A program made the translations under genes and the position numbers. Below, piece by piece: positions 25,444 through 28,769 of a stretch of DNA of 64,000 nt (position 1 is the stretch's first letter; every line of letters begins with the position of its first letter). The stretch is taken from the NCBI RefSeq assembly GCF_000384395.1, contig NZ_ARWE01000001.1, forward strand, positions 682,001 through 746,000. The letters run 5' to 3'. Source of the DNA: Geopsychrobacter electrodiphilus DSM 16401. Lineage in GTDB: Bacteria; Desulfobacterota; Desulfuromonadia; Desulfuromonadales; Geopsychrobacteraceae. The notes beneath the pieces are model-generated. The model ran no database searches, was not told where the DNA came from, and saw nothing but the letters and a program-made list of their open reading frames with translations.

Positions 25444-25540
25444 CCAGACCGACAATGGCAAAATCAGAGAAATCTGGTGACGCAAAGCCACGGGTCCTCT
25501 TTGTGTTGATACAAAAGGATAGCCGGGCCACCGAAGGATG
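25444..25540 (+). promoter_or_regulatory. GEMM-I (cyclic di-GMP-I) riboswitch aptamer
   Basis: The conserved core is present in order: GACAATGGCAAAATC, a stem closed by a GAAA tetraloop (ATCAGA-GAAA-TCTGGT), GACGCAAAGCCACGGGTCC, a second stem (CTTTGTGTTGATACAAAAG) and ATAGCCGGGCCACCGA. The base preceding CAAA (position 20 in Vibrio Vc2 numbering) is G, the c-di-GMP type, not the A typical of the cGAMP-sensing variants. A terminator follows, so ligand probably controls readthrough into the receiver gene at 25666. Confidence 0.9.
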
Positions 25541-25665: not shown

Positions 25666-26064
25666 ATGTCCCAACGTATCGCTCTGGTTCTGGAAGATAA
25701 CCAGGAATGTCGCACGCTGCTAACAGAACTGTTGGCGGAAAAACAACTGCAGGTGAAGGCTTTTTCCGGCCCGGATTCTTATCTGGTGACCCGACTTGAC
25801 AAGGAATGTCAACTCAGCTGTCCCTTTGACGGGTTCACGATGACCGATAACGACCTGCCGGGGATGAGTGGTCTCGAATTTTTAGAAAAGCTTGAAGCCG
25901 GAGGGTGTAAGCTTCCTGTTGACCGCAAGGCGATCATTTCGGGAAACTGGTCCGCAGAAGAACGCATGCGTGTGCGTCTGTTGGGTTGCCGTGTCTTCAG
26001 CAAGCCGCACAAGATTGCCGAGATTTATCAGTGGGGTGATAAGGGCCCGGCGGAGAAGGTTTGA
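25666..26064 (+). CDS. receiver-only response regulator under riboswitch control
   Basis: 132 aa single receiver domain with no output domain. Acidic residues ED near position 10, the phosphoacceptor in MTDNDLPGMSG, the ISGNW switch region (Ser in place of the usual Thr) and the Lys of FSKPHK are all present. A single-domain receiver usually acts through protein contact or as a phosphate shuttle. The gene is alone behind the c-di-GMP riboswitch and terminator, linking its level to c-di-GMP. RBS AAGGAG lies 10 bases before the ATG. Confidence 0.88.
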   Translation: MSQRIALVLEDNQECRTLLTELLAEKQLQVKAFSGPDSYLVTRLDKECQLSCPFDGFTMTDNDLPGMSGLEFLEKLEAGGCKLPVDRKAIISGNWSAEERMRVRLLGCRVFSKPHKIAEIYQWGDKGPAEKV

Positions 26065-28476: not shown

Positions 28477-28550
28477 ATCCGTGCGGGGGACGACAGCAAC
28501 AACGTTGGTCATATTATGTTACGGAATCTTTTGGTGTGAAAGGAGTCTCC

Positions 28551-28769
28551 ATGGACGTCAGTATCGCCTACTGTACCCAGTGAAATTATCTTCCCAAGGC
28601 CACCAGTCTGGCGGCCAAACTCAAACAGCGGTTTTCAGCACAGGTAAACCTGGTCCCCTCGTCTGGTGGTGCCTTTGAAATCGTAGTAAATGGTCGAAAA
28701 ATTTACTCTAAGCTTGAGACCGGGGACTTTCCCGATGAGGAGCATCTGATTCAGTCGCTAGGCGGCTGA
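28551..28769 (+). CDS. selW: SelW-like selenoprotein (CxxU motif, in-frame TGA)
   Basis: Reading from ATG 28551 through an in-frame TGA at 28581-28583 gives a 72-residue protein that ends at the TGA at 28767-28769. The start MDVSIAYCTQU has Cys8 and selenocysteine 11, the CxxU redox motif of the SelT/SelW/SelH (Rdx) family; the second half (SGGAFEIVVNGRKIYSKLETGDFP) is the family's diagnostic GxFEVxVNGxxIxSK...FP. A SECIS-like hairpin follows the TGA, and GAAAGGAG is the ribosome site. Standard gene callers would break it at the TGA. Function: small thioredoxin-fold redox protein, partner unknown. Confidence 0.92.
28598..28616 (+). promoter_or_regulatory. bacterial SECIS-like hairpin for selenocysteine insertion
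   Basis: GGCC-A-CC, loop AGTCT, GG-C-GGCC forms a stem starting 14 bases after the in-frame TGA. The apical loop carries a GU pair of bases, 25-26 bases downstream of the T of TGA, close to the distance in E. coli fdhF where SelB reads GU. It lies inside the coding sequence as bacterial SECIS elements do. Confidence 0.7.

Follow-up and report, generated by a model that had tools for sequence, protein, structure and literature searches.

The stretch at 28551 to 28769 on the forward strand of the window (the whole 64,000 nucleotides of Geopsychrobacter electrodiphilus DSM 16401 DNA analyzed here) is almost certainly a gene for a small SelW/Rdx-family redox protein in which selenocysteine (Sec) serves as the reactive residue. 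The sequence reads from an ATG at 28551, placed 5 bases after a Shine-Dalgarno-like AAGGAG (28540 to 28545, same strand), through an in-frame TGA at 28581 to 28583 to the final stop, also TGA, at 28767 to 28769. Translation through the first TGA yields a product of 72 residues that contains C8-T-Q-U11, with Sec as residue 11 of the CxxU motif, and the segment GGAFEIVVNGRKIYSK, exactly the frame and features that the original prediction had described. An out-of-frame ORF at 28481 to 28678, which a gene caller might choose, gave no Pfam match at an E value of 0.001. A promoter scan near the gene returned a single weak forward-strand match (9/12) upstream of it, at 28490 to 28517, which is not convincing, since the region holds 5 such sites where 1.5 would be expected; no forward-strand terminator was found in the scanned region of the gene.

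For comparison with family profiles, the 72-residue protein was used as the query with Cys substituted for Sec. It matched Pfam Rdx (PF10262) with an E value of 8.2e-22 and 77.6 bits (cut-off, 22.6) and NCBIfam CXXU_selWTH (TIGR02174) with an E value of 3.8e-20 and 71.9 bits (cut-off, 34.2), and C8-T-Q-U11 supplies the CxxC/CxxU motif near the N terminus that marks the Rdx, or SelW-SelT-SelH, family; the Rdx family match is not due to chance. The score against the Campylobacter-type NCBIfam equivalog model NF041051 (SelTWH_Campy) was 86.3 bits, just under the cut-off of 88, and the protein is therefore not assigned to that subgroup. Proteins of the Rdx family adopt a thioredoxin-like fold, and solved structures are available for some relatives, among them 2fa8 (Atu0228 of Agrobacterium, E value of 2.8e-12) and, with a weaker match, 2npb (Selenoprotein W, E value of 9e-4). 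Atu0228 is an example of the Cys-type Rdx proteins, which have the family and the CTQ motif in common with the window protein but carry Cys at position 11, where the latter has Sec. The SelW-like gene is the sole Rdx match at an E value of 0.001 in its own genome.

The codon at position 11 was followed in two sets of homologues. A search of relatives, covering 60 genomes with our own included, gave 47 SelW matches in 40 genomes, and 45 of the 47 contained one in-frame TGA; one of the 2 matches without it spans residues 39 to 70 only. Thirty of the 47 matches were fetched as loci (L023 to L052), and all 30 have TGA at position 11. A scan of named genomes with six peptide patterns added 71 loci (40 with TGA and 31 with Cys), whose titles include Bacillus-type genera, Verrucomicrobia, Planctomycetota, Binatia, Devosia, Rhizobium, and Rhodobacter-type bacteria. 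In the resulting 101 homologous loci, where the gene under study, listed twice (L022 and L023), was counted once by leaving out L022, the codon at position 11 is either TGA (70 loci) or TGC for Cys (31 loci), and nothing else occurs; the proportion of 70 to 31 is not a natural frequency, because near relatives contributed 30 of the loci and one of the six patterns, which itself contains Cys at position 11, detects Cys forms only. The in-frame TGA thus aligns with Cys of homologues, and a lack of homologues with Sec or Cys at this position, which had been named in advance as an observation that would count against a selenoprotein, was not encountered. Cys occupies position 8 in 99 of the 101 loci; the other two, both from Virgibacillus (L089 and L094), retain TGA at position 11 while Arg replaces the conserved Cys8, and selA is over the cut-off in both genomes. 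Separately, four relatives (G009, G010, G016, and G025) have two or three SelW-like matches each, and one of those in G009 lacks a TGA.

The existence of Cys forms in 31 of the 101 loci, and the single base that separates TGC from TGA, raise the alternative that a Cys-type SelW gene has here become a decaying pseudogene, its TGC having turned into TGA. We regard this as very unlikely, given that the TGA stands at the identical place in 70 of the 101 loci, in relatives as well as in records from Bacillus-type bacteria, Verrucomicrobia, Planctomycetota, and Binatia, and that the sequence beyond it appears to be under protein-level constraint. When the 59 codons compared after the TGA are set against those of the nearest relative (L024), 22 show synonymous and 14 show nonsynonymous changes, and the changes favor third codon positions (14, 5, and 26 at the first, second, and third positions, respectively), a comparison that points to constraint on the protein downstream of the TGA. 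In six more distant relatives the nonsynonymous changes equal or exceed the synonymous ones (25 and 25 in L025; 27 versus 13 in L030), and third codon positions remain the most changed after the TGA. The presence of the Sec machinery in the genome also argues against a pseudogene.

That machinery was sought in the genome of the organism, a single contig of 4,241,730 bases that contains the window. Genome profile searches placed selA (543.5 bits), selB (359.3 bits), and selD (343.7 bits) over their family cut-offs, and the three genes adjoin one another at C1:1185320-1189634. A tRNA-Sec scored 66.4 bits against an Rfam gathering score of 47, and ARAGORN likewise reported a tRNA-Sec, with anticodon tca; its identification leans on this anticodon, because 5 of 14 control genomes also score over the cut-off of the family model. 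The expectation that the organism would possess SelA, SelB, SelC, and SelD, whose absence had been proposed as grounds for rejecting the selenoprotein, is therefore borne out by selA, selB, selD, and a tRNA-Sec (tca), all over cut-offs. As a side observation, selD (L018, G000:C1:1188717-1189634) itself contains one in-frame TGA and matches AIRS and AIRS_C when that TGA is read as Cys; because of this TGA, it too may encode a selenoprotein.

The distribution of selA follows the form of the gene. We selected 28 of the 71 named loci (18 of the 40 with TGA and 10 of the 31 with Cys) and searched their genomes for selA: all 18 TGA-form genomes had it over the cut-off, compared with 3 of 10 Cys-form genomes, and 3 further Cys-form genomes had matches below the cut-off. 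The genomes of L097, L105, and L122 combine selA over the cut-off with a Cys-type SelW homologue. In the search of relatives, selA was over the cut-off in 54 of the 60 genomes, and 3 of the 40 genomes with a SelW match (G008, G015, and G022, drafts of 590, 340, and 470 contigs, respectively) had no selA over it. That the UGA might be read as an ordinary amino acid, by near-cognate suppression or reassignment, found no support here and is highly improbable, since Cys alone replaces TGA in the 101 loci, selA accompanies the TGA form (18/18 versus 3/10), and the SelW-like gene itself terminates at a TGA (28767 to 28769).

A bSECIS-like hairpin was found at 28598 to 28616 on the forward strand, beginning 14 bases after the TGA, in agreement with the SECIS-like hairpin with a GU-containing loop that had been described there. 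It is laid out as GGCC-A-CCA, the loop GTC (GUC in the mRNA, 28606 to 28608), and TGG-C-GGCC, giving 7 pairs and an A-C mismatch (28602/28612), and it folds alone at -9.9 kcal/mol. The published bSECIS model calls for a loop of 3 to 9 nt, a stem of 4 to 16 bp, a distance of 16 to 37 nt from the UGA, a G in the first two loop positions, and an MFE of at most -7.5 (PMC13188914). Under our own coding of this model, which is distinct from bSECISearch and allows one stem mismatch, the hairpin passes with a 3-nt loop that has G first and U second, a spacing of 22 nt between UGA and loop, and the energy given above. Counting both strands, the window has 2444 TGA trinucleotides, and 177 of these pass the same test, in 64 cases with as low an energy. 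When the 63-nt stretch was shuffled 200 times, 31 of the shuffled versions folded equally well; on these grounds the hairpin alone is weak evidence and by itself could be a chance occurrence. Rfam at gathering thresholds gave no match at the hairpin, its one match in the window being a riboswitch elsewhere.

What makes the hairpin credible is its conservation in relatives. In an alignment reduced to distinct rows, 68 of the 70 with TGA and 30 of the 31 with Cys, every TGA row has the loop G (68 of 68), and T follows it in 66 of 68 even though this is a third codon position, while stem columns 24 and 30 of the TGA rows hold C-G in 41, G-C in 22, and A-T in 5. Eight column pairs were examined, one for each of the 7 base pairs of the window's hairpin and one for its mismatch. 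Pairing was found in 81.4% of their cells in the TGA rows, a value that falls to between 23.9 and 51.7% when the partners are slid by 1 to 3 bases and that is reached by none of 500 shuffles; in the Cys rows, 50.8% of cells pair in the same columns. At the base of the stem, the two column pairs 18/36 and 19/35 do not pair in most of the relatives. Two measures of covariation add no support, because 131 of 500 shuffles reached the observed number of pair types and 398 of 500 reached the count of pairs in which both partners had changed.

Frame, family match, machinery genes, and the conservation of both TGA and hairpin were observed directly, and the original reading of the gene as a SelW-like selenoprotein is supported by the family match, the Sec machinery, the restriction of position 11 to TGA or Cys, and the conserved hairpin. 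Taken together with what is known of the family and of Sec decoding, this evidence leads us to infer Sec insertion in G. electrodiphilus, which would proceed as follows: (i) SelD would provide selenophosphate and SelA would form the Sec-tRNA; (ii) ribosomes would start at 28551 and, at the UGA at 28581, the downstream mRNA hairpin would recruit SelB with Sec-tRNA-Sec; and (iii) this recruitment would lead to the insertion of Sec and to continued translation as far as 28767. From established knowledge of the family, the protein would be redox active, and its CxxU pair, acting with a thiol partner, would probably cycle via a selenenylsulfide bond.

Among bacterial selenoproteins, SelW-like proteins with Sec form an established family (PMC1794560, PMC2398784, PMC9312934): it is named for Geobacter sulfurreducens, Desulfotalea psychrophila, and others (PMC1794560), accounts for 427 Sec-type sequences in ocean samples (PMC2398784), and is entered as pfam10262 with CxxU (PMC9312934). 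A study of Epsilonproteobacteria adds that annotations missed some SelW genes completely and that an optimal SECIS was lacking in one putative SelW from Campylobacter fetus (PMC4607533). In Campylobacter jejuni, ribosome profiling and proteomics are reported to show that full-length SelW is translated past the UGA (PMC11955535). In view of these earlier reports, the window gene is of a kind long known. It shares with the bacterial SelW-like selenoproteins, such as that of G. sulfurreducens, the Rdx family (PF10262), a CxxU with Sec as its second redox residue, a downstream bSECIS-like hairpin, and a Sec-decoding host; no difference of substance was found at the level of the published listing (PMC1794560). 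The SelW of C. jejuni (CJnc60) is, like the window gene, a small gene with an in-frame UGA, described in its source as unannotated; its product has approximately 80 amino acids compared with the 72 of the window protein. Ribosome occupancy was reported across it, with a termination peak downstream of the stop codon of the full-length frame, and proteomic data support translation beyond the Sec site (PMC11955535). The present gene adds one well-supported SelW-like selenoprotein and by itself raises no new question; it supports UGA read-through in one more small gene, which callers that stop at TGA would miss or cut short.

The gene lies between a DUF547 gene upstream and a UbiA gene downstream; the neighboring haem and oxidase-like genes were recognized by eye, and the UbiA gene was the one checked. 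A tblastn search for the DUF547 and UbiA neighbors in loci L001 to L123, which extend about 1.5 or 2.5 kb each way and less at contig ends, matched only the window's own loci (L022 and L023), and gene order therefore gives no clue. It would be a long shot to regard the UGA as a putative selenium gate, by which scarce selenium would leave only a 10-residue peptide and the redox protein would appear only with selenium supplied, tuning the neighboring haem/oxidase-like genes. Elsewhere in the window, Rfam identified a c-di-GMP-I-GGC riboswitch at 25448 to 25536 (63.7 bits versus 59), and the ORF downstream of it, at 25666 to 26064, has a response-regulator match below the cut-off (27.5 versus 30.2 bits).
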